From a virus: DNA of 21,073 nucleotides. Every line of letters starts with the position of its first letter. Position 1 is the first letter of the stretch. Of this stretch, positions 1,178 to 21,073 are shown piece after piece. Below the pieces are notes generated by a model. It searched no databases. It saw nothing but the letters and a program-made list of their open reading frames with translations, and had not been told where the DNA came from. The position numbers and the translations under genes were made by a program. Where the stretch lies: positions 1 to 21,073 of IMG/VR virus record IMGVR_UViG_3300020193_000168. One strand, given 5' to 3'.

Positions 1178-2086
1178 TTAGGCTTTTGGAGCCGTTTTTG
1201 ATATTGATTGAACATAACGAGCCATTACAGAGTTACCTTTTTCTACTTCTGGTTCTTCATCAAGAGAGACTCTTTGAAGTTCCTTTACCTCACTTTTCAC
1301 TTGTACTTTAGTCGGGAAGTAGTTCTCGCGTAATACCGCGAGTTTTTCTTCAAAATCACCTTCTGCGGTGAACTCCACACCCTCTGCGAGTGCCTTCATC
1401 TTTCCTGCTTGAACTGCTGTGAGTCCTTCGCAGAATGAATTAACTGCTTTCTCTTTCTGAACAGCATTTAGTTGTTCTTGGAGAGAAGAAATTGTTTTTT
1501 GTTGTCCTGCAACATATTCGTGAACACCTTCAACGTATTCAGCTGCATTCTCAAGTTCTGCTGCAAGTGTTTCTGCAACATCAACTCTTTCTTCAGGAAT
1601 TTCGATATAGTGTTCCTGGAACAATGAGCGTAGACCAGAAATAAAGTCCTCTGCGAGTTCGGCACGTAGACCTGTCTCGATAGCAACTTGATTCTGTTCC
1701 ATCCATTGCTCAACGACATAGTTGAGATACTCATCAACCTGCTCAGTGAGATTACTCTTAATCTCTTCATAAGCATTCGCAAGCACCTCGTCGTTTTGCT
1801 GTATGACTTGTTCAAGAATTGCTTCTACGCGAGAAGACACAGCAGATTCAAAAATCAATGTGGCTTTGGCGCGGAACTCTTCAGAGAGTGATTCGCCATT
1901 AAATAGCGCATCAACATCCTCTCTCATGTTGCCTCGGAACTGCTTAACCGTTTCTTTAATTGCAAGCATTCTTTGCTCGCGAATTTGCTCTTCGGTGAGT
2001 TCAGTTGTTTCATCTTCGATTGTTTCTGTTGTTTCCATTGATTGATCTTCTCCTACGTCGTAATCATGCTCCTGTGAAGCATTCAT
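1178..2086 (-). CDS. gp22: Probable nested gp22 scaffold from internal start
   Basis: In-frame ATG at codon 871 of the giant gene has a strong ribosome binding site, GAGGA (2098-2094), seven bases upstream. Starting here gives a 302-residue acidic, helical protein beginning MNASQEHDYDVGEDQ, close to the size and layout of ordinary T4-like gp22 (269 residues in T4). A second in-frame ATG at 2038 (codon 887) has AGGAG eleven bases upstream. Seen directly: the ribosome binding sites and the reading frame. Inferred: that the phage makes a short, abundant scaffold together with a longer minor form, as phage lambda does with Nu3 nested in gene C. If the internal start is not used, only the 1172-residue form exists. 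Confidence 0.55.
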   Translation of the reverse strand: MNASQEHDYDVGEDQSMETTETIEDETTELTEEQIREQRMLAIKETVKQFRGNMREDVDALFNGESLSEEFRAKATLIFESAVSSRVEAILEQVIQQNDEVLANAYEEIKSNLTEQVDEYLNYVVEQWMEQNQVAIETGLRAELAEDFISGLRSLFQEHYIEIPEERVDVAETLAAELENAAEYVEGVHEYVAGQQKTISSLQEQLNAVQKEKAVNSFCEGLTAVQAGKMKALAEGVEFTAEGDFEEKLAVLRENYFPTKVQVKSEVKELQRVSLDEEPEVEKGNSVMARYVQSISKTAPKA

Positions 2087-4696
2087 GTTTGAATCCTCAA
2101 TTCTTTCGTTCATAGCAGTGGGGCGTGGACGAACTACGTCCCAAATTCCTTTGACTAGATCATAACTAGCTTGACCAACAGCGCCAGCTCTGGCAGACCG
2201 TTCCCAATCTTGTCCAGTTAATGCACCGCCAATACCTGCTCGGATACCAGCGCGACCTGCTCTTTTGAGCCAATCGTATCCAACATCGCCTAAATCTTTT
2301 TTTCTGCCTTGGTCTGTTATCTCACCGCCACCTGTTTCGGATGCATTTGATGATGCATCTGATCCTGAACCACGATTGTTCCAATTCACATAAGAAGTTA
2401 AATCACCACCAGGTGCATTTCCACCAGGATTTGATGCACTTCCACCATCACTTCCACCACCTGGACCTTGTGGAGTCACAGATGGACCTGATGGACCTTG
2501 AGGACCAGTCACAGATGGACCTGCGCGATCGCGCACTCGCCATGGACCTTGAGGACCAGTCACAGATGGACCTGATGGACCAGCTTCAGTTTTAGCAAGA
2601 AGATCCTTAAGATCTTGAGCAAGTTTTAAATTGCCTTCTTTAGTTTTATCTCGGAGATTATACGCAGTTTCTGTGCCAAGTTTACCTGCAGCATTTATAG
2701 CTGCAGGATCTGGTTCTTGACCTGCTGCTTTTTGTGCTGCTGCAGCTGCAGCCATAGCTGTTGCTCCACCATAACGACGAATCGCAGCACCTGTTTTTCC
2801 GTAACGATCTTCGTCACTCATTTCAGATGGTGATTGGAATTTAGTTCCTGTCCAGAATTTGCCTTTATTTGCACCAGTTCCCCTTTCGCCATACTTCGGT
2901 GCTGCAGTGTTTGTTGCAGATGCTTTTGGTGGAATGATTTGTGTTCCATCGCCAGCCTTGAGACCTTCTTTATCGATTCTTTCTCTTTCGGCTTGCGCTC
3001 TTTTTTCTTCAGCCTCGGCTGCAGCATCTAGTGCTCTACCTCTAATAATTCGATCTTGAGCACCACGAATATTGCGTTTGTTCAAACGACGTGGACCACC
3101 CCTTTCAAATAAGTTTACAACGTATTCAACTTGATCCTCTGATAATGAATTAATAAACTGATCTAGTTGCTCTTCATTTAATGATGAGAGTTGATTAATG
3201 AGTTCGATGTTTTCAGCAGCCATTCTGTATGTCCCCGATCTTGATCTAATATTTTTCTTTGCATCTTGGAATGTTTGATCCCATTTGTTTGTATTTATGG
3301 TGTTTCCAATATCTAAAGGCTCATTATCTTGAGTTTGTGCTGTTAGATTTGAACCGCGATCGCGTTTTTGATTTGCAGCAACAATACCAGTTGATACTGC
3401 GTCACCTGCTAAATCTGAACCTGTTCCTTGTGCAACTTGTGCACCTGCAGCATTTGCAAGTGATCCGACAATTGCATCACGTGTTTTACCACCTTGTAAT
3501 TTAGCACCAGCAACATCGCGCGCAAGATTACCTACAAGCTCTGATCCTGTTGCTTTTGCAATACCGCCACCAATTCCTCCAGTCACTCCACCAATCGCAC
3601 CAGATTTGGCTCCTGATTTTAAGCCTGCTGAAAAACTACCGCCTGACAATTTACTTTGAACACCACCCTGAATTGTTCCCGATATGCTTTGTTGAACAGC
3701 ATTTTTCGCCAAGGTTTTTAAACCAGCTTTCAAACCTGCTTTTGCGACACCACTAGCAGCAGCACCAGCACCAGCAGCACCACCAGCTGCACCACCAGCT
3801 GCTGCTGCTCCAAAACCTAATTTTCCAGCGATCGCACTCCCAATTCCAGGTAAAAGAAATCCAGCCGCAATTGGAAGTGCAACTTTAGCAATTTTCTTTA
3901 AAATTTTTCCAATACTTCTTTTCTTTTTAAGGACCCATTGTCCACGTTTAAATTTCCATTTCTTACCCTTGGGTGGAGGTTCTGTTGGTTTTGGAGGGCG
4001 TCCTGTATTCGGAGCTGCTGTCGGAGCTGGTGCAGAGGCGTTAACATTACCATCAGATTCACCACCAATACTTGAATTTCCATAATCACGCGCTGCTAAT
4101 TCAGCAGGATCAGTTTCTTCATCTAAAGATGCAAGTTGAATTGTGTATACTATTTCCTCTTCATTTAATCCTTCAAAAAATTTAACTACTTCTTCATCGG
4201 ATTGTGATTCAATAAAATCTGCTAGTTGATCTGCGTCCTCTTCCAACTGCATGAATTCATCTTCAGTGAATTCTCGTTGTTTAAAATCATTAATAATCGC
4301 TTCAATTATTAATTCTTTTGCTCCATCCTCACCATATTGTTCAATTAAAATTTCATTGAGTTGTGCGCAAACACGATCGTAACCATGAGCTGCAATCAAA
4401 TTTTCCATTAAATTTTCAGATTTTTCAGATTCTGAATTTTCCTCTGACTCTTCATCCTCGGTTGGAAGTTTCTTAATTTCTTCTGCTGGAGCTCCAGGAC
4501 GACCTGGTTTTGGTGTTGCATTTATTGATTGTGCACTCATTAAACCTGGAGAAACAACATCTCCAGTGAGCATTTCACCACCAAGATCAGCAGCTGGGGT
4601 CATCATAGCAGCCATTGGAAGTGGTTCTCTTCCAGCACTTGCAACTGAAGCTGCAAGAATTTCTGCTGCTGATTCATGTAATGTTTTATGACCCAT
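1178..4696 (-). CDS. gp22: Giant prohead scaffold: ~870-residue extension fused in frame to gp22
   Basis: A 1172-residue protein between genes 21 and 23, the place of the T4 scaffold gene 22 (269 residues in T4). Residues ~871-1172 are gp22-like: acidic start, LTEEQIREQR, then long charged helices (EFRAKATLIFESAVSSRVEAIL), and a C terminus rich in (L/I)-x-E sites suited to gp21 digestion. The 870 residues before it are not normal for gp22: an N terminus with TLHESAAEIL and DLGG, an acidic stretch (80-200), a Lys-rich patch then a hydrophobic Ala/Gly-rich segment (245-443), a duplicated ~24-residue motif (166-189 and 507-530), a charged region rich in Arg/Lys/Glu (530-585), an Ala-rich block (645-658) and a short collagen-like Gly-Pro segment (705-748). 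Start ATG has GGAG six bases upstream and a TATAAATA box behind it. I infer that the extension is an internal head protein carried in by the scaffold; an accidental fusion of two genes is the alternative. Confidence 0.9.
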   Translation of the reverse strand: MGHKTLHESAAEILAASVASAGREPLPMAAMMTPAADLGGEMLTGDVVSPGLMSAQSINATPKPGRPGAPAEEIKKLPTEDEESEENSESEKSENLMENLIAAHGYDRVCAQLNEILIEQYGEDGAKELIIEAIINDFKQREFTEDEFMQLEEDADQLADFIESQSDEEVVKFFEGLNEEEIVYTIQLASLDEETDPAELAARDYGNSSIGGESDGNVNASAPAPTAAPNTGRPPKPTEPPPKGKKWKFKRGQWVLKKKRSIGKILKKIAKVALPIAAGFLLPGIGSAIAGKLGFGAAAAGGAAGGAAGAGAAASGVAKAGLKAGLKTLAKNAVQQSISGTIQGGVQSKLSGGSFSAGLKSGAKSGAIGGVTGGIGGGIAKATGSELVGNLARDVAGAKLQGGKTRDAIVGSLANAAGAQVAQGTGSDLAGDAVSTGIVAANQKRDRGSNLTAQTQDNEPLDIGNTINTNKWDQTFQDAKKNIRSRSGTYRMAAENIELINQLSSLNEEQLDQFINSLSEDQVEYVVNLFERGGPRRLNKRNIRGAQDRIIRGRALDAAAEAEEKRAQAERERIDKEGLKAGDGTQIIPPKASATNTAAPKYGERGTGANKGKFWTGTKFQSPSEMSDEDRYGKTGAAIRRYGGATAMAAAAAAQKAAGQEPDPAAINAAGKLGTETAYNLRDKTKEGNLKLAQDLKDLLAKTEAGPSGPSVTGPQGPWRVRDRAGPSVTGPQGPSGPSVTPQGPGGGSDGGSASNPGGNAPGGDLTSYVNWNNRGSGSDASSNASETGGGEITDQGRKKDLGDVGYDWLKRAGRAGIRAGIGGALTGQDWERSARAGAVGQASYDLVKGIWDVVRPRPTAMNERIEDSNMNASQEHDYDVGEDQSMETTETIEDETTELTEEQIREQRMLAIKETVKQFRGNMREDVDALFNGESLSEEFRAKATLIFESAVSSRVEAILEQVIQQNDEVLANAYEEIKSNLTEQVDEYLNYVVEQWMEQNQVAIETGLRAELAEDFISGLRSLFQEHYIEIPEERVDVAETLAAELENAAEYVEGVHEYVAGQQKTISSLQEQLNAVQKEKAVNSFCEGLTAVQAGKMKALAEGVEFTAEGDFEEKLAVLRENYFPTKVQVKSEVKELQRVSLDEEPEVEKGNSVMARYVQSISKTAPKA
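2094..2098 (-). promoter_or_regulatory. Internal ribosome binding site for nested gp22
   Basis: GAGGA seven bases before the in-frame ATG at 2086, deep inside the giant gene and exactly where ordinary gp22 would begin. Its strength equals that of the real starts of gp23 and gp19 in this window. Confidence 0.55.
2475..2574. repeat. 33-bp exact direct repeats split by an 18-bp insert
   Basis: Positions 2491-2523 and 2542-2574 are identical over 33 bases, and a 16-base partial copy lies at 2475-2490. The copies encode the collagen-like Gly-Pro-Ser-Val-Thr / Gly-Pro-Gln part of the giant scaffold gene. The 18 bases between them (2524-2541) encode WRVRDR out of pattern and contain the palindrome CGCGATCGCG. 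Confidence 0.9.
2525..2532. repeat. HIP1-type octamer GCGATCGC, copy 1
   Basis: Octameric palindrome identical to HIP1, a repeat that is very frequent in many freshwater cyanobacterial genomes. It lies in the 18-base insert between direct repeats and is extended to CGCGATCGCG. Read on the minus strand it encodes Arg-Asp-Arg. Confidence 0.6.
3356..3363. repeat. HIP1-type octamer GCGATCGC, copy 2
   Basis: Second exact copy, also within CGCGATCGCG and also read as Arg-Asp-Arg (KRDRG) in the giant scaffold gene. It lies just after the Ala/Gly-rich region. Confidence 0.55.
3828..3835. repeat. HIP1-type octamer GCGATCGC, copy 3
   Basis: Third exact copy, read as part of Ala-Ile-Ala in the hydrophobic segment of the giant scaffold gene. 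I found no other exact copy in the window. Confidence 0.5.
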
Positions 4697-4720: not shown

Positions 4721-4728
4721 TATTTATA
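4721..4728 (-). promoter_or_regulatory. Late promoter TATAAATA for scaffold gene
   Basis: Perfect match to the T4 late-promoter box, in the 36-base gap between gene 21 and the giant gene. By T4 spacing, transcription would start near 4715, giving a leader of about 19 bases that still holds the GGAG site. Confidence 0.7.
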
Positions 4729-4732
4729 AAAC

Positions 4733-5377
4733 TTATAATTTGGACAAGAAGTTTTCAAAAATCTTCAATGAGATATCGTCTAATTGCTTCTGTTTTGCAG
4801 TCTTTATTTGATTATAATATTCATTTACATTAAATTCCCTCACAAAACCATTGTCCCAGACCCACTCTTTACCTTCCATAATGCCTTGAACAAAAGCACC
4901 TGGAGCTGATGGATCAGCTACAATATCAGCTGCAGTTGCAAGATAAAAGTCTGGTTGAACGATATTGACTCCATTGATCATCTTAAGAGAGCCCATACCA
5001 CGCGAGGATACACCAAGAGTAGCACCAGCCTCCATAAGATTTTTAGCAATTTTACCCATTGGAGTTTCAAGAACTTTTGCTTTACCCTCGAATATATTAC
5101 CATTGCGCGAAATATTGGTAATCATATGAGAGACGCGCTCTAGATTAATGGTTGGTGATTCTGGGTGACCGAGTTCGCCGAATGCACGATTCTTATCAAC
5201 GTATTCTTTCATATAACGATTGACTTCGTTTTCGAGAACCGTTACTGGATAAGAACGACCATTGCGGTTCTTTGTTTCAGCGACAAGGAATGGACCTTGA
5301 ATGTAAAGAGTCTTTACACCGTTATTTTCTTCGGTGATAACTTTAATTTCTTCAACTGTTTCTGTGATTAACTTCAT
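4733..5377 (-). CDS. gp21: Prohead core protease gp21
   Basis: Serine protease (T4 gp21 family) that sits in the prohead core and cuts the scaffold, the major capsid protein and other core proteins after (L/I)-x-E when assembly is complete. The 214 residues, about T4 length, show the family blocks: TKNRNGRSYP (35-44), FGELGHPESP with the probable catalytic His71, and LGVSSRGMG with the probable nucleophile Ser124 or Ser125; Asp151 in ATAADIVADPSAPGA may take part in the active site. Start ATG at 5377 has AGGA eight bases upstream, overlapping the stop of the preceding gene, so the two are likely translationally coupled. The gene stops just before the late-promoter box of the scaffold gene. 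Its substrates in this window probably include the giant scaffold, gp23 and the basic-tail protein upstream. Confidence 0.96.
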   Translation of the reverse strand: MKLITETVEEIKVITEENNGVKTLYIQGPFLVAETKNRNGRSYPVTVLENEVNRYMKEYVDKNRAFGELGHPESPTINLERVSHMITNISRNGNIFEGKAKVLETPMGKIAKNLMEAGATLGVSSRGMGSLKMINGVNIVQPDFYLATAADIVADPSAPGAFVQGIMEGKEWVWDNGFVREFNVNEYYNQIKTAKQKQLDDISLKIFENFLSKL

Positions 5378-5381
5378 TTTT

Positions 5382-6509
5382 CTATTCCTTTAATCCTAAT
5401 GATGCACGTTTTCTAAGTGATCTCTTTCTACGCATGAGAGCTCGTGCTTGCTTTGCTTTTCGTTTAACTTTTGCGCGCCGTTGTGCGCGTTTTCTGCGAA
5501 GTCTTTCTTGCACACTCATGCGCTTGAGTTTGCCGCCACGAATGGTATATCCTTTAACAGCAGAGAATTTTTTTCTTCTTTGGACTTTACCGCCACGAAC
5601 TCGTGCTTTAATAATTTTTGTACGACCTTGACGAATTATATTCGGATTGCGATTTGCTTCGCTTAATGGCTCTGGATCCAGTTCTGTAACCTCTTCATGT
5701 AATCCATAATGTGCTTGACGTAATGCTTTAGCATCTGAAGCCATAGCCTGGTTTTGCAAATGCGCAGCTCTACGTTCTGCTTCTGCTTGTTGATCTGGTG
5801 TTAATTTGGAGCGGTCTGCAACTATTGTTGCTGGAGATTTTCCAAGTGGATTTGGAAGTTTATTATAAAGATCCGAGATTTGTTTTGAACTTATTTTGGG
5901 ATTTGACATCACTTCGCGTCCAGCAATCAATGGTGACTGCATGGTGTTTACTTTTCTACTTATAAATGCATTTGCACCAATTTGTCTTGCGATGTTCTTT
6001 GATTTTTCTCTATTTGCTTTATTGCGCTCATTGAGTTCAACTGGTGCATTGATCGCAATTGCTTTTTTATAAAGATCTAATTTGTGTGTCGCTAATTGAT
6101 TTAAAATTGCATATACTTCTTCTTTAATATCCTCACGGCTCATATAATTTTTTGCTTCTTTTGACTTAATGATGCGAGGATTAAGAAATTGCATCATTTT
6201 AATTCTAAGTTCTTCTTTATGATCAAAAGTTTTATTATCTTTTTCTTCCTCTTGATCTTCTTCTGGATCATCTTCAACTTGTGCTGCTTGACCTGACAAT
6301 TCTTGTTTAGGCTGTTCAGATAATACTTTTCCAAGCAATTCCCGAACAACAATGTTTGATTGGTCGATGCTTGTATCTGTTGGTTTTATTCCAAGTTTTT
6401 TCTGTTGCATTTTTTCTTTTTGCGCAATAATTTTTTTTAAATTTGAACCCTTTCTTTCTTCGAAATCAGAACCTTCGCGATCTTCAAATTTTTGTTCTTC
6501 TAAATTCAT
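5382..6509 (-). CDS. Prohead-core-type protein with Arg/Lys-rich C-terminal tail
   Basis: I do not recognise a named function. The 375-residue protein is mixed-charge in its N-terminal part, with a strongly acidic run around 79-90, and extremely basic at the C terminus: I count 36 Lys/Arg in residues 295-375, including RVRGGKVQRRKKFS and YTIRGGKLKRMS followed by repeated RR/KR blocks. Just before that tail is PLSE-ANRN (Glu284/Ala285), an ideal gp21 cleavage site, so maturation could free a ~91-residue polycationic peptide inside the head. It overlaps the gene upstream by four bases (ATGA) and is followed at once by the protease gene, in the slot used by T4 prohead-core genes 67/68. Likely role, by inference: core or internal head protein binding DNA. 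I recall similar basic C termini next to other T4-like protease genes, but cannot confirm it here. Confidence 0.88.
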   Translation of the reverse strand: MNLEEQKFEDREGSDFEERKGSNLKKIIAQKEKMQQKKLGIKPTDTSIDQSNIVVRELLGKVLSEQPKQELSGQAAQVEDDPEEDQEEEKDNKTFDHKEELRIKMMQFLNPRIIKSKEAKNYMSREDIKEEVYAILNQLATHKLDLYKKAIAINAPVELNERNKANREKSKNIARQIGANAFISRKVNTMQSPLIAGREVMSNPKISSKQISDLYNKLPNPLGKSPATIVADRSKLTPDQQAEAERRAAHLQNQAMASDAKALRQAHYGLHEEVTELDPEPLSEANRNPNIIRQGRTKIIKARVRGGKVQRRKKFSAVKGYTIRGGKLKRMSVQERLRRKRAQRRAKVKRKAKQARALMRRKRSLRKRASLGLKE

Positions 6510-7294
6510 TTAATCAGTTCGGCAAATTGTTTTACTTTTTCAAATGCTTCTTTATCTTGAAGAGTCATGTCTTTTAATCTTGATTTATTTTCTTCATTAA
6601 GCAATGCATGAACTTTTGAAATTTTATCCATCGTTTGTTTTTCTACTTCAATTTGTTCACCAGATGCAAAAATAATAGGTATCATTTCTTCGTTTACATA
6701 TCCTTTTGCCGCTGGTTGATTTTGCATTGTACCACTAGTATTTACAACGCCAAATCCTTTATCATAATCATAAGGAACTGGAAATGTTAAACCATATTTG
6801 TTATCCGAATACATAACAACTCGCTGACCATTTGGGAATACTCTAATTGCTTGTCTTTTCAATAGAAGCATTGCAGGAGGATTAAATTGTTCATTCAATA
6901 TTTCGGTTTCTTCTTTTAATTTAATGTCTCTTAATGCTCTATTAAACTGAACATTCGAAGCATTTACAATTATTGGTAGCGGCAATGCATTTATCACTGG
7001 CGATAATTGATTTCTATTTTGTGCAGGTAACTTTCTCAAAATATCAAAATGCTTTAGGTTTGGATTTTTTTGCGAAGCTTGTATATATTTATCAATTGCA
7101 CTAGTTACCATTGAAGGATTCACACCCAATTTTAATCTACTGTTTGCAGCACTAATTCTTTTTTGTATCAGATTCCGTCGGCGCAGATTTATTTTAGTAA
7201 GTTGTTTTATTCTTTCATTTTTTGAAGATGTGTTTGTGTTTTGGGATTGTTTTTCCTCATTTAATCCTATTTGTTTATCGATATAATTTTTCAT
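6506..7294 (-). CDS. Conserved-looking head-region protein of unknown function
   Basis: A 262-residue protein that I do not recognise. Residues 1-100 are basic and Asn/Gln/Lys-rich. A better ordered core (about 140-200) contains PPAMLLLKRQAIRVFPNGQR and YGLTFPVPYDYDKGFGVVN, which looks like a beta-rich fold. The last ~48 residues form a charged helical segment (VHALLNEENKSRLKDM). Its ATG overlaps the stop codon of the small gene before it by one base (TAATG), and its TGA overlaps the next start by four bases, so the three genes 7491-5382 look translationally coupled. Position between portal and protease genes points to a prohead core or scaffold accessory role. That is inference from gene order only; there is no catalytic motif and no signal peptide or membrane segment. 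Confidence 0.85.
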   Translation of the reverse strand: MKNYIDKQIGLNEEKQSQNTNTSSKNERIKQLTKINLRRRNLIQKRISAANSRLKLGVNPSMVTSAIDKYIQASQKNPNLKHFDILRKLPAQNRNQLSPVINALPLPIIVNASNVQFNRALRDIKLKEETEILNEQFNPPAMLLLKRQAIRVFPNGQRVVMYSDNKYGLTFPVPYDYDKGFGVVNTSGTMQNQPAAKGYVNEEMIPIIFASGEQIEVEKQTMDKISKVHALLNEENKSRLKDMTLQDKEAFEKVKQFAELIK

Positions 7295-16532: not shown

Positions 16533-16540
16533 TATTTAGT
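16533..16540 (-). promoter_or_regulatory. Late-promoter variant ACTAAATA before gp13
   Basis: Overlaps the stop codon of the GT2 gene and gives a predicted leader of ~18 bases holding the GAGG site of gene 13. It is the same variant as before gene 18, which supports both. Confidence 0.4.
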
Positions 16541-17286
16541 TATTCGACCAATCTGCCCTCTCGCGACGTATAGATAAGATTCGGATCCATATGAGCGAAT
16601 TGTTCCCAATTAGGCTCGCCTTCTAGAATTCGTTTGCCTGTCGACTCTTCTCCGATATGTTCTATGATATGTTGACCTTCTGAATTCTTGAGTTGCGCAG
16701 AATACATCTGATGAAAATGATTTAAATATACCATAACCATTCCTTCATTAATATTAAACTTCCAATATTCTCTAAATGGGAAATCTATAATAGACTTTCG
16801 ATATAGACTAAAGATAATCGGAAAGGTTTTTATATTCTTGCTGTAATGATATGATTTAAAGGGAGTATCATCAGGTTCAATCTGACTGGGTTTTTCATGA
16901 AAGTACCACGGTTGTCTTTGCAAGACTACAGAAGCCATTTTAGGATCGGTTTCAAGGCATTCGATCAGATCATCTACTCTTATGGATTCTATAAGTAAAA
17001 CGTCATCTTCCTGATGTAGTATATAATCCACATCCATTCCTTGTAGGCTTGTGAAAAAATCAGACCAATTAACTGATAATCCTTTGTTAGTTTTATTATT
17101 CCAAATTTCAAATCCATATCGTTTACCGATCAGATCAAAAATGGCATCATTTCGAGTTCTAGGATAATCGTCTATGATTATTTTTCGAACTTCATGATTT
17201 CCATAATCTAGATTCTTTAAAGAATCAAGAGTCGGAAACAGATATCGTAACCGATTACATGAGAAAATTACATGTAGAATCTTCAT
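16540..17286 (-). CDS. GT-A fold glycosyltransferase, family 2 type
   Basis: A probable nucleotide-sugar-dependent glycosyltransferase. The 248 residues begin MKILHVIFSCNRLRYLFPTL, the usual GT2 start (beta strand then substrate loop), followed by KIIIDDYP (35-42) and the metal/sugar-nucleotide motif HQEDDV with Asp94/Asp95. There is no membrane segment, so it should be cytosolic. The ATG follows the stop of the oxygenase-like gene with no gap and no good ribosome binding site, so translation is probably coupled. It is last in the four-gene cassette between the fibre genes and gene 13. Target unknown: a virion fibre, DNA base or host surface are all possible; the neighbouring collagen-like fibre is my preferred guess. 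Confidence 0.82.
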   Translation of the reverse strand: MKILHVIFSCNRLRYLFPTLDSLKNLDYGNHEVRKIIIDDYPRTRNDAIFDLIGKRYGFEIWNNKTNKGLSVNWSDFFTSLQGMDVDYILHQEDDVLLIESIRVDDLIECLETDPKMASVVLQRQPWYFHEKPSQIEPDDTPFKSYHYSKNIKTFPIIFSLYRKSIIDFPFREYWKFNINEGMVMVYLNHFHQMYSAQLKNSEGQHIIEHIGEESTGKRILEGEPNWEQFAHMDPNLIYTSREGRLVE

Positions 17287-17844
17287 TTAGTATTCTGTAT
17301 TAAAAAAGAAGGTTTGAAATAATCTTCCGTTTTCACGATTGTTTCCGAAGTAATCTAACGATGCATGATACAAATTACCACGATATAAAACCAAGCGATT
17401 ATATTTGTTAGAAACGTAGTCTGTCATTTCCCATTTGGTATAATCATACCCATCAAGTTGCGTCGCATCATTACTGAGTCTTTCATATTCTTTTGTTTCT
17501 TTATAACGATACAATGCAGTTCCAGAAGAAACTGGTGCATCAGGCGTTAGATAACAAACTCCAGCCCAAGTATTAAAACTATCGGCATGAATCCAAGTTC
17601 TATCAATGGCAGTACAAATTTGAAATGCGCCAGTATATCCAGATTCTTCAAACCAATGTGTGATCTTGCCACCAGCTTTAGTCATGATATGTTGAATCGA
17701 TTCTTTTAAATCATCAGGCAAATAAGGTTGTGTGCGAAGACCAGGATAATTGCCTGAGACCTCGAAAGGTTGAGTAAGTGCATAATCACGAACTAAATCT
17801 GGATTTGTATAGAAATCGTCTACAATTATAAGTTTTGTCTTCAT
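17287..17844 (-). CDS. 2OG-Fe(II) oxygenase-like protein (DUF6445 type)
   Basis: A likely non-haem iron, 2-oxoglutarate-dependent oxygenase. From ATG 17844 the protein has 185 residues (MKTKLIIVDDFYTNPDLVR). It shows an HxD pair (His86, Asp88 in WIHADSFNTWAG), a strand-rich core (VCYLTPDAPVSSGTALYRY), a distal His160 in NLYHAS and Arg174 in GRLFQTFFF, the iron- and oxoglutarate-binding layout of this fold. The open frame extends 20 codons upstream, but that stretch (MACFWMGWRF) is the antisense-like overlap of the preceding gene, and MKTKL starting 8 bases after its stop fits the operon better. Family membership from the motifs is fairly safe; the substrate is not known. Position among glycosyltransferases suggests hydroxylation of a residue or sugar. 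Confidence 0.8.
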   Translation of the reverse strand: MKTKLIIVDDFYTNPDLVRDYALTQPFEVSGNYPGLRTQPYLPDDLKESIQHIMTKAGGKITHWFEESGYTGAFQICTAIDRTWIHADSFNTWAGVCYLTPDAPVSSGTALYRYKETKEYERLSNDATQLDGYDYTKWEMTDYVSNKYNRLVLYRGNLYHASLDYFGNNRENGRLFQTFFFNTEY

Positions 17845-17852
17845 ACTTGACG

Positions 17853-18605
17853 TCAATAATACATAAATTTGCCAGAAGCGCCATCCCATCCAGAAACAAG
17901 CCAATCTGTTTCAATTAATTGATCTTTAAATGGTCGCGTTAAATAATATGAAAGAGTTTCAATGTCATATTGATACATTTCTTTACTATCAATAAAACTC
18001 ATTGATGCCTCATTTATATCTATCATCTTATCTAATTGCGAACTACCAAAGCCATAAAGCACAGTGCAATATTGGCGAAGCATATCGTCTTCCTGAATGG
18101 TTCTTTCATCAACCATCCAATAATTCCAAGCATCCTTCCATTTAAACTGCAGTGGCTTTTTGAAGAAAATTTTATCTTTATTTTCTTCGATAAACAATGC
18201 ATCATTAAAGTTGTCATAGAAATATCTTCCTGTGGCTTTGATGACAAAGTCATGACTTTGTATTTCTTTTTTAAAATGTTTATAGAAAGTGTTAAGCAAC
18301 AAACTTTCGCAATAACTTTTGTTTAAATGCGTATTTACTTTCTCAAAAACAGTATATGATATTTCTTTAAGTGGTATGAACTCCACGTTTTTAAAAAAAC
18401 TAAAAAATCCCATATACTCTCTGTAATCATCTGATGAGTCGACTATTTTTATCGTCGCATCTGGAAGAGTATTTTTAATTGAATTAATTGTAAAGAACGT
18501 TTGTCTAAATCGCTCCTCTTTGTCGAAAATGGAACGTGTTTTACTGTATGTAAATTTTCCATCTCTCGGTTGAATTGAGGAACCAACAACTACAAGTTTA
18601 TTCAT
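17853..18605 (-). CDS. Glycosyltransferase-like protein, activity unknown
   Basis: A 250-residue protein resembling GT-A-type transferases but without a motif I can assign firmly. It begins MNKLVVVGSSIQPRDG, has RFRQTFFTINSIKNTLPDAT (a helix after strand one) then IKIVDSSDDYREYM, and the segment HDFVIKATGRYFYDNF, whose K-x-(S/T)-G-R-Y pattern I associate with uncharacterised phage and bacterial transferases. The C-terminal part is aromatic-rich (LVSGWDGASGKFMYY). The ATG overlaps the end of the GT4 gene by eight bases, so the two should be co-translated. The role is inferred from neighbours: a step in building or attaching a glycan. It could also be a non-catalytic partner. Confidence 0.75.
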   Translation of the reverse strand: MNKLVVVGSSIQPRDGKFTYSKTRSIFDKEERFRQTFFTINSIKNTLPDATIKIVDSSDDYREYMGFFSFFKNVEFIPLKEISYTVFEKVNTHLNKSYCESLLLNTFYKHFKKEIQSHDFVIKATGRYFYDNFNDALFIEENKDKIFFKKPLQFKWKDAWNYWMVDERTIQEDDMLRQYCTVLYGFGSSQLDKMIDINEASMSFIDSKEMYQYDIETLSYYLTRPFKDQLIETDWLVSGWDGASGKFMYY

Positions 18606-19593
18606 AGAATTTATTCTTTATGACTTTTTGTAGGTACTGATGATGCTGCTCATGTACTTTCTCATCGGAGAAGTTTAAACCCCATTTTCTGCAATTTTCT
18701 GATTTAATATTGTCAATCGATTCGATAGCAGTTAGAATAGATTTAAAATTGCGTGCACGATAACCTGTTTCTCCCTGTAAAACAATTTCAGGAAATGCAC
18801 CCCAATCTGTTGTAATCACAGGAGTGCCAGAAAGATTGGCTTCAATAATCATGTTGCCAAATGGTTCAACATAATATGTTAATGCAATCAAACTCTTTGC
18901 ATTCTTCATTAGTTCTTTTCTCTTCTCGGGTCCAGCATAACCAATCATCTCAACATGTGAAGGCGTTGTGCTATAACCCAAATGCTGTAAAGAACCTGGA
19001 CCAGCAATAATAAGTTTTTTTCCAAGAATTGCTGTGGCTTGAATTGCTAGATGCACGCCTTTTTCTTCGCATACTCTACCGAAGAATAGAAAGTAATCAT
19101 CTTTTTTGTCACTGTATTCAAACTCATCGACTGTAAATGGATTTGGAATTACTGCATCGAACCAAGAAGGGTTCATAAGCATTCCACGCTCACCATAAAA
19201 CATATGCATTTGAGCATAAGAAGTGAACGCTCTATATGGAGCAAAAATACCATTTGAGCGATAACCAATCGAAGGTTCAACTGGCTTGAGTTTTGGATTC
19301 ATCTCGCAAGCAAGTTTATTCTCAATTCCATAAAAGCATACAATTAAATCATCGTCGCTAGAGTTTTGTTTTATATGTGTTCCAATTTGTTCATTGAAAC
19401 TTTGTATGTCTAAACCATCAATAGGAGTATCAACGTGTTCACAATCCACCTGAGCACCAGGGATACCGTAGTGGATGATTTCGTAGTGCGGCGAAAGATG
19501 CTTGATATACTTGTATAGATGTACAGCAAATGGATCGATGCGATTCATCAACCCTGTAGCACTTCTTGGATTTCCAAAAGCGTGTATTTTCAT
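18598..19593 (-). CDS. GT-B fold glycosyltransferase, family 4
   Basis: A retaining-type glycosyltransferase by family. The 331 residues show the GT4 C-terminal domain well: FLFFGRVCEEKGVHLAIQA (168-186), KLIIAGPG (193-200), and the E-x7-E motif from Glu243 (EPFGNMIIE to Glu251) followed by LSGTPVITTDWGAFPEIV and GETGYRARN. The N-terminal half is the less conserved acceptor domain. Start ATG at 19593 has no good Shine-Dalgarno sequence. A CATAAATA late-box match lies 43 bases upstream with a predicted 37-base leader, making this the first gene of the modification cassette. It probably acts in the cytosol on a virion or host glycan; the sugar and acceptor cannot be read from sequence. Confidence 0.9.
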   Translation of the reverse strand: MKIHAFGNPRSATGLMNRIDPFAVHLYKYIKHLSPHYEIIHYGIPGAQVDCEHVDTPIDGLDIQSFNEQIGTHIKQNSSDDDLIVCFYGIENKLACEMNPKLKPVEPSIGYRSNGIFAPYRAFTSYAQMHMFYGERGMLMNPSWFDAVIPNPFTVDEFEYSDKKDDYFLFFGRVCEEKGVHLAIQATAILGKKLIIAGPGSLQHLGYSTTPSHVEMIGYAGPEKRKELMKNAKSLIALTYYVEPFGNMIIEANLSGTPVITTDWGAFPEIVLQGETGYRARNFKSILTAIESIDNIKSENCRKWGLNFSDEKVHEQHHQYLQKVIKNKFYE

Positions 19594-19651: not shown

Positions 19652-20272
19652 CTATAGTGATACTTCTGCGTCTGATGCTAGAAAAAATGGTCGAGTTATT
19701 AATGTACCGCCACTGTCTTTTAAAATTAAATTTCCAGAAAGAGTTTTATCATCAATTCCTGGACCTGGAGGTTCAATAAATGATGTTAAAGTCCAGCTTC
19801 TTGTTGTGCTTAATGCCAAATCTGTATTTACAGAATCTCCACCAGGTGTGTTGCCTGATGTTTTTTGTAACTGTATTGTGTAATCGCCAGCACTTCCAGA
19901 TGTTAACCAAGTTCGATTGAAGATATTTTGATCACCAGCATCGCCAATTACAATTATACTCATTTGCCCATTACTGCGAAAATAGATAGCAGCTGACGCA
20001 TAGGCAGATGAAAATGGTGGATCATACATTGAAAATTGGCTTGCTTGAATGTTGAGTTCGCTATCAACATTATAGTTTATGACTCTTTCTATGTTATCAC
20101 AAATACCACCAGGAATGTTTATTCCCCAGCGACAGTCGCCAAATTTAATTGCGCCTGAAGATTTAACTGCCAAGTTTCTTGTATTTGCATCATTTAATTT
20201 TAAAATTGCTGAAGACGTTTTACCAAGTTCACTATTAATTTGAGATGCAGTTGTTTCACTAGGAATTGGCAT
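19652..20272 (-). CDS. Small virion/fibre-associated protein
   Basis: A 206-residue protein starting [20 protein letters not shown] after the initial Met. The pattern (I/P)-x-x-x-x-x-A-S-Q-I-N-x-E-L-G followed by LND is a short module I know from the ends of many phage structural and adhesin-like proteins. The rest is predicted beta-rich and Gly/Ser-rich ([20 protein letters not shown], then [20 protein letters not shown]) with a Pro-Gly turn (EPPGPGIDD). I choose ATG 20272, with GAGGA seven to eight bases upstream, over TTG 20275. It overlaps the fibre gene by 14 bases, so it is probably made with the fibre and may be a tip or attachment protein. The exact function is unknown. Confidence 0.8.
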
Positions 20273-21073
20273 CAAACTTCCTCAAAGTTTCTTCAATTTG
20301 ACTTACCTTTTTATTGAGATCTTTAATTGCCTCAATCAATAACGGAATCATTTTTTCATATCGCACTGCCTTAAAGCCATCGTCGCGATCTACTACAATT
20401 TCTGGTAATACAGACTCAACTTCTTGTGCAATTACACCAACATCATGTTTACGAACAAAAAATCCGTCTTCACCACCACGAGAAGCAATATGACTATCAA
20501 TCCAATCAAATTCAATACCTCTGATTTCTTGCACTTTTTCAAGTGCATCTGGTAAAACTTTGACATTTTCTTTGAGTCTAGCATCGGAAGAATAAAATGC
20601 TGTGATCTCACCAGTTGCACGAATTTCACTACCTGCAGCTGCAGTAGAAGTGGTGCTCACCATCAAACCACCAAAATAAACGTGATTGGTTGTGTTTGCA
20701 GCACCAGCTGGACCCTGTGGACCTTGAGGACCAGTTGCACCTTGTGCTCCTTGTGCTCCTTGTGCTCCTTGTGCTCCTTGACTTCCTTGTGCTCCTTGCG
20801 CTCCTTGCGCTCCTTGTGCTCCTTGATTTCCTTGTGCTCCTTGTGCTCCTTGATTTCCTTGTGGACCTTGCGGACCTTGTGGTCCTTGTGGACCAGTTGC
20901 ACCAGTGGCACCCTGTGCTCCTTGCGCTCCTTGTGCTCCTTGTGCTCCTTGATTTCCTTGTGGACCTTGTGGTCCTTGAGGACCAGTTGCACCAGTGGCA
21001 CCCTGTGCTCCTTGCGCTCCTTGCGCTCCTTGCGCTCCTTGTGCTCCTTGATTTCCTTGTGGACCTTGTGGTC
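20259..21073 (-). CDS. Collagen-like fibre protein with C-terminal S74 chaperone (5' end outside window)
   Basis: The 3' part of a fibre gene; the frame is open from the window edge to TAG at 20259. The visible N-terminal part is about 41 uninterrupted Gly-x-y triplets ([12 protein letters not shown]), expected to form a collagen-type triple helix. A short linker ([15 protein letters not shown]) leads to a peptidase S74 domain: [20 protein letters not shown] with the Ser-Asp and Lys positions kept, [15 protein letters not shown], then a coiled-coil end ([20 protein letters not shown]). By family, S74 trimerises the fibre and cuts itself off at the Ser of the SSD motif (codon near 20588). The gene lies upstream of gene 13, where T4 has the whisker gene wac, so a collar or tail fibre is possible. 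An internal TTG/ATG near 20666 is not needed as a start. Confidence 0.9.
20703..21073 (-). repeat. Tandem 9-bp coding repeat (Gly-x-y), collagen-like
   Basis: A 9-base periodicity runs without a break to the window edge. There is a higher-order order of two GAT, two to four GPQ, one GNQ and several GAQ triplets, seen nearly three times. The codons are close to identical between copies, so slippage or recombination could change the length. It continues beyond the window. Confidence 0.95.

Follow-up and report, generated by a model that had tools for sequence, protein, structure and literature searches.

The window analysed here, the whole stretch of 21,073 bases, is an IMG/VR fragment that carries a T4-like phage head-tail cluster on its minus strand. 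Its long gp22 gene lies between the gp21 protease gene as upstream neighbour and the gp23 capsid gene as downstream neighbour (from 1159 down; Pfam Gp23, 1.9e-102), which is the placement of a T4-type gp22 scaffold (T4_CASP), and as the earlier note had described, the frame between genes 21 and 23 runs without interruption across 1172 codons (Table 1). The octamer TATAAATA upstream of the gene, which matches the T4 late promoter consensus, is also found upstream of gp22 in most relatives inspected; it occurs twice in the window against 1.2 copies expected by chance and is weak evidence if taken alone. A missed stop or frameshift, by which a sequencing or assembly error would have falsely joined two genes, had been named in the earlier note as the outcome that would overturn this description, and the frame does contain domain-like boundaries. 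However, the frame is equally continuous in independent contigs from other metagenomes, the gp22 N-terminal arm sits upstream of the insert and the insert shows purifying selection, so that an error of this kind is refuted and its residual probability is negligible.

Table 1. Features of the long gp22 gene and its surroundings (window coordinates; residues are those of the window gp22; a slash marks a gp21-type site).
Feature	Position	Strand	Basis
Gene 68-position protein (T4), Lys/Arg-rich putative core protein, 375 aa	5382..6509	-	
gp21 prohead protease, proposed processing enzyme	4733..5377	-	Pfam Peptidase_S77 7.5e-34
TATAAATA, putative late promoter upstream of gp22 gene	4721..4728	-	consensus match
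Long gp22 gene, 1172 aa, single open frame	1178..4696	-	ORF analysis and profile match
N-terminal arm, residues 1-78 (KTLxESAAEILxAS..DLGG..KPGxxGAPAE)	4463..4696	-	alignment with short gp22s
Acidic helical segment, residues 79-193, net charge -31, 7 L/I-x-E sites, end SLDE/E	4118..4462	-	
Predicted cargo block 1, residues 194-503, net +19, no L/I-x-E site	3188..4117	-	
Cationic helix, then Gly/Ala-rich (glycine-zipper-like) segment, residues 259-440	3377..3922	-	
Second acidic hairpin, residues 493-531 (LSSLNE/EQLDQFINSLSE/DQVEYVVNLFE/), three L/I-x-E sites	3104..3220	-	
Predicted cargo block 2, residues 532-866, net +12, no L/I-x-E site	2099..3103	-	
Helical segment, residues 604-708, pLDDT about 84-94 in full-length model	2573..2887	-	
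GAGG, putative ribosome-binding site for internal start	2095..2098	-	
ATG of Met871, putative internal start, 302-aa plain scaffold	2084..2086	-	
ATG of Met887, second putative internal start (GGAG at 2050-2053)	2036..2038	-	
gp22 scaffold core, residues 901-1172 (T4_CASP 924-1164)	1181..1996	-	Pfam/PHROG

Profile analysis of the window gp22 identified Pfam T4_CASP (PF25623) at residues 924–1164 (1.3e-60; 205.5 bits against a curated cut-off of 27) and PHROG_237 at residues 850–1168 (2.7e-71), while Pfam, PHROG and PDB searches with the insert gave nothing significant. Alignment showed that residues 1–78 and ~900–1172 both correspond to short gp22 proteins of relatives (e.g. L016, L018 and L019 with 411, 412 and 365 aa). 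Because this arm and core are both common to short gp22s, the alignments indicate that an ordinary gp22 of 360–410 residues has received the extra ~780 residues within its acidic linker. The extension had been described in the earlier note as fused to the N-terminus of a gp22 recognisable only in the last ~300 codons; the profile matches are indeed C-terminal only, but the first ~78 residues are already ordinary gp22 and the N-terminal fusion did not hold.

A census of relatives was compiled from the 80 best core matches and the earlier loci, using gp22 proteins with their start on the contig. Core identity of at least 75% was accompanied in every case by a gp22 of 948–1388 aa and identity of 62% or less in every case by one of 323–523 aa, giving 11 long and 56 short gp22s in distinct relatives; the gp22 gene of L014, an 83% core match, is incomplete on its 2-kb fragment. 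Of the possibility raised beforehand, that gp22 has this length in all relatives and the extension is ordinary scaffold, the length part was thus correct within one clade of close relatives and wrong for every more distant relative. Annotated cyanophages and a pelagiphage have gp22 proteins of 349–410 aa (S-PM2 392, P-SSM7 349, Mosig 410). At 1172 aa the window gp22 lies outside the range of the 56 short relatives and outside ~270–520 aa, a length that describes known T4_CASP members and is no criterion for exclusion from the family.

Phylogenies built from 67 distinct rows for gp21 and for the gp22 core each united all 11 long gp22s in one clade of uncultured T4-like phages, with support of 100/98 and 100/100, respectively, and in the gp22 core tree this clade was nested among short forms, which is consistent with one gain of the insert. 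The insert in this clade measures about 550–1000 residues and lies between the N-terminal arm and the scaffold core. On these alignments and trees we regard the insertion and its restriction to a single clade as almost certain. The gene psbA, considered as a hint to the host, was absent from seven long-clade records, all of them fragments.

The dN/dS values of the insert were 0.2–0.6 in pairs with enough divergence in comparison to 0.18–0.27 in the core, indicating that the insert is a real, translated protein evolving faster under purifying selection, with cargo block 2 as the fastest-evolving part. A structure model of full-length gp22 was poor (mean pLDDT 46), although the hairpins were predicted to be helical with moderate confidence; the high score of the helical segment at residues ~604–708 was not reproduced when it was folded alone, and Foldseek with the full model returned no match at E<=0.001. 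Searches of annotated phages, plasmids and GTDB bacterial and archaeal genomes gave no free-standing homologue of the insert. Block 2 of the long form L009 contains a LysM sequence (PF01476, 3.6e-8, above the cut-off) at 3292–3594 of that locus, in two stretches that are apparently half-domains in permuted order. Cyanophage genes named 'late control gene D/endolysin' matched the L040 block only weakly (E about 0.03–0.08), and these matches were not used. As a lead only, proteins of ~600 aa that appear virion-like in other tailed-phage contigs (L125–L163) share with the insert a compositionally biased stretch of cationic helix, FIPGVG and Gly-rich sequence (GFFKKIGKALKK...FIPGVG...) at about 30–38%; this likeness may reflect either homology or convergence, and their PHROG matches (tape measure) fall outside the stretch concerned.

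Composition analysis confirmed the acidic, basic/hydrophobic, Ala/Gly-rich, charged and collagen-like segments listed in the earlier note, and the alignment of long forms revealed a repeated plan: a helical, acidic segment closes with a hairpin, and a long, mostly cationic Gly/Ala-rich block follows. The order is hairpin and block, second hairpin (LSSLNEEQLDQFINSLSE), second block, junction and scaffold, the first hairpin being of the type LSEEExDxYxxxLxEEELVYAIQLxSLNE. Two blocks are present in the window gp22, and three hairpins with three blocks in L040, where the second block begins after MSLAE/AR. In block 1 of the window gp22, a cationic helix precedes a Gly-rich segment of hydrophobic character (VALPIAAGFLLPGIGSAIA), and relatives have similar PGVG segments; block 2 contains collagen-like repeats and a C-terminal Gly-rich helix, KRAGRAGIRAGIGGALTGQDW. 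These repeats are short and imperfect (~2462–2583), with no long uninterrupted Gly-X-Y array of a collagen-like protein found among them, and they are not evident in the inserts of L009 and L011. Net charge of the blocks ranged from +8 to +21.

T4 gp21 cleaves after L/I-x-E (PMC9026906), a short motif that is common in acidic helices. The window gp22 has 24 such motifs, one at residue 8 and the others in the acidic segment, second hairpin and scaffold core, and its residues 194–503 and 532–866 are free of them. This pattern is repeated in other long forms, whose blocks between hairpins span 217–358 residues with 0–1 motif, L029 and L030 having one extra motif inside block 2. The apparent motif depletion in cargo blocks (2 against 17.4 expected) was rejected as partly circular, as block borders had followed the motifs. 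A motif-blind comparison, in which the inserts of nine orthologues were sorted by charge in 40-residue bins with the expectation taken from shuffles, showed no depletion in cationic bins (17 observed, 10.4 expected), while acidic bins contained 112 motifs in comparison to 65 expected; our claim is limited to this enrichment in acidic bins. The blocks are long and uncut more because of low Glu content than because of selection against the motif, which does not affect what gp21 would leave. As in the T4 internal proteins and Alt, a gp21-type site precedes the predicted mature part, here as a motif at SLDE193 and hairpin 2, but the block sequences are inside gp22 and not in a separate gene with a short N-terminal targeting peptide.

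Every long form that covers the junction of insert and scaffold carries GAGG-N8-ATG in frame, and the product predicted from this internal start has 302 aa in the window and about 285–289 aa in most other long forms. When the internal ATGs of the main window genes (n=135) were scored for anti-Shine-Dalgarno pairing, two reached -5.9 kcal/mol or better, namely Met871 (-6.0) and Met887 (-6.9), and no such start site was found at the matching place in three short gp22s checked. At the level of sequence, an in-frame internal start with a ribosome-binding site before the scaffold part corresponds to the lambda C/Nu3 type. Alternatively, only the full-length protein may be made and GAGG-N8-ATG may simply result from conservation of the residues E-[D/E/G]-x-x-M, since codon use is all GAG in six of 34 invariant Glu columns, making conserved GAG alone weak evidence, and the motif has one further copy in the window, as expected by chance. 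However, the spacing is kept in L011 (GAGGAATTACATATG) and L040 (GAGGGACAGACAATG) despite different residues, the L040 junction reading NEGQTMS instead of EDSNMN with the 8 nt unchanged; a second GGAG...ATG follows 7–16 codons further on in most long forms, and all other internal ATGs in the window are weaker. Disuse of the nested start is therefore considered unlikely, and the internal start is probably functional.

Enlargement in this lineage also involved the protein at the gene 68 position, which has 285–478 aa in the long clade in comparison to about 100 aa in most short-gp22 relatives (L010, L007, L011, L018 and L019 were among those inspected). The ~100-aa proteins typically start with ...IIAE/ANVQ, like a T4 targeting peptide, and most long-clade proteins inspected have an LxE/A-N or LxE/A-K site before the basic domain. 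As this protein and gp22 are both enlarged in the long clade, the comparison indicates that two core proteins grew in one lineage. In the short-gp22 phage L048, the basic protein at the gene 68 position and the ORF upstream of it form a single fusion (2566–3408), apparently of independent origin; the window counterpart of that upstream ORF is at 6506–7294. Small unrelated domains occupy the same gp22 linker in some short forms (L055, L050, L058, L105 and L098), and the ~80-residue domain of L098 is missing from L097 and L100, which are otherwise nearly identical. These small domains had no Pfam family match, and those of L098, L055 and L105, the three tested by tblastn, matched no phage record.

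We lean towards the reading that the long gp22 is a head scaffold with cargo inside its own chain, which gp21 would free, and with a nested start that would provide for scaffold number. Full-length gp22 would enter the prohead core via its scaffold domain, and gp21 would cut at the hairpins, so that scaffold and acidic spacers would be digested to peptides and two basic proteins (three in L040) would be left in the head with the DNA, like T4 internal proteins after targeting-peptide removal. Most scaffold would come from the internal start (GAGG-N8-ATG, Met871), setting its copy number apart from that of the cargo; T4 contains about 576 gp22 copies (PMC9026906). Retention of gp21-released cargo in the virion is rather probable. 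At least part of the cargo might then be ejected and act at the host envelope, the least certain step, which is suggested by the LysM motif of L009 and by the segments that resemble glycine zippers and is proposed tentatively. The cargo idea of the earlier note thereby gained circumstantial support from clustered L/I-x-E motifs in acidic hairpins, the L009 LysM, linker domains elsewhere and the probable internal start, but its anatomy had to be revised to an insertion inside gp22. More broadly, gp22 may be a modular polyprotein carrier in phages of this family, with the linker as a bay for unrelated head cargo. Such cargo would range from small domains of ~50–150 residues (L055, L098, L105, L058) up to the two or three large blocks of the long clade, with the hairpins as core-binding and gp21-cutting spacers and with a nested start that would uncouple the copy numbers of scaffold and cargo.

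The insert could instead be a purely structural enlargement: additional scaffold serving to fill a larger or prolate core or to set its size, which gp21 would degrade and which would be expelled with nothing functional left in the virion. In T4, the core proteins gp22, gp67 and gp68 probably contribute to determining head size (PMC9026906), the gene 68-position protein is bigger in the same clade, and low-complexity, collagen-like and Ala/Gly-rich stretches would fit a filler. However, gp21 would leave long blocks intact where L/I-x-E sites are few or absent, basic and glycine-zipper-like sequence, LysM-bearing in L009, is unlike acidic coiled scaffold, and a conserved start bypassing the insert suggests a need for plain scaffold alongside; we judge mere enlargement to be improbable. 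Instead of being ejected to act at the envelope, the cationic Gly-rich blocks could condense DNA as internal proteins or counter restriction, as T4 internal proteins are basic and DNA-binding (PMC9026906), IPI inhibits a restriction enzyme (PMC3012670), and the blocks share net positive charge and fast evolution. Hydrophobic Gly-rich cores and the LysM motif suit an envelope role better, and the DNA-directed or anti-restriction function is judged possible but less likely than not.

The reading of a cargo-carrying scaffold can be placed among known head systems. Short gp22s of T4-like phages (PF25623, PHROG_237; Kyanoviridae and IMG/VR relatives) share the gene order 21-22-23 and the C-terminal core with the window gp22, and the closest short-gp22 relatives also share its N-terminal arm and acidic linker; the difference lies in the ~780 residues inserted in that linker and the putative nested start at the junction. 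In lambda C/Nu3, the scaffold is made in frame from the 3' part of the protease gene, in which it is nested. An in-frame internal start that gives a shorter product of a head gene is a feature of lambda C/Nu3 and T4 gene 21 and putatively of the window gp22, although the long product is the protease in lambda and would be cargo plus scaffold here. T4 gene 21 has a functional second start at Met45 (PMC9026906), so that an internal start has a precedent among T4 head genes. T4 IPI-III and Alt reach the head by way of the core, and gp21 releases them by cutting after L/I-x-E, the IPs being basic, as is proposed for the window blocks; however, T4 internal proteins are encoded by separate genes, the IPs with N-terminal propeptides of 10–19 residues, whereas the window cargo would be within the scaffold chain between acidic hairpins. 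The P22 scaffold is needed to bring ejection proteins into the procapsid (PMC8402733), but the two are separate in P22 and one covalent chain in the window gp22. Head and ejection proteins of the giant phages SPN3US and phiKZ have long propeptides cut by a gp21 relative after x-x-E motifs (PMC7411985), but such a propeptide forms the N-terminal portion of its own cargo protein and does not belong to a scaffold. Descriptions of such insert-bearing gp22 proteins were not found among the open-access papers searched.

Short targeting peptides are the known route for loading T4-like internal proteins. If the scaffold itself carries cargo, this would constitute a second, covalent loading route in which one nested start would allow simple tuning of cargo and scaffold amounts, and the unannotated linkers of environmental T4-like gp22 genes would be a place to seek ejected proteins.

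Inspection by eye of the remaining window showed glycosyltransferase-like and other non-structural-looking ORFs at 16540–19593 (-), between the neck and tail-fibre genes. At 20259–21071 (-), collagen-like Gln-Gly repeats precede a C-terminal chaperone-like domain of the DARLKENV.. type, and the underlying 9-base repeat leaves several frames open.
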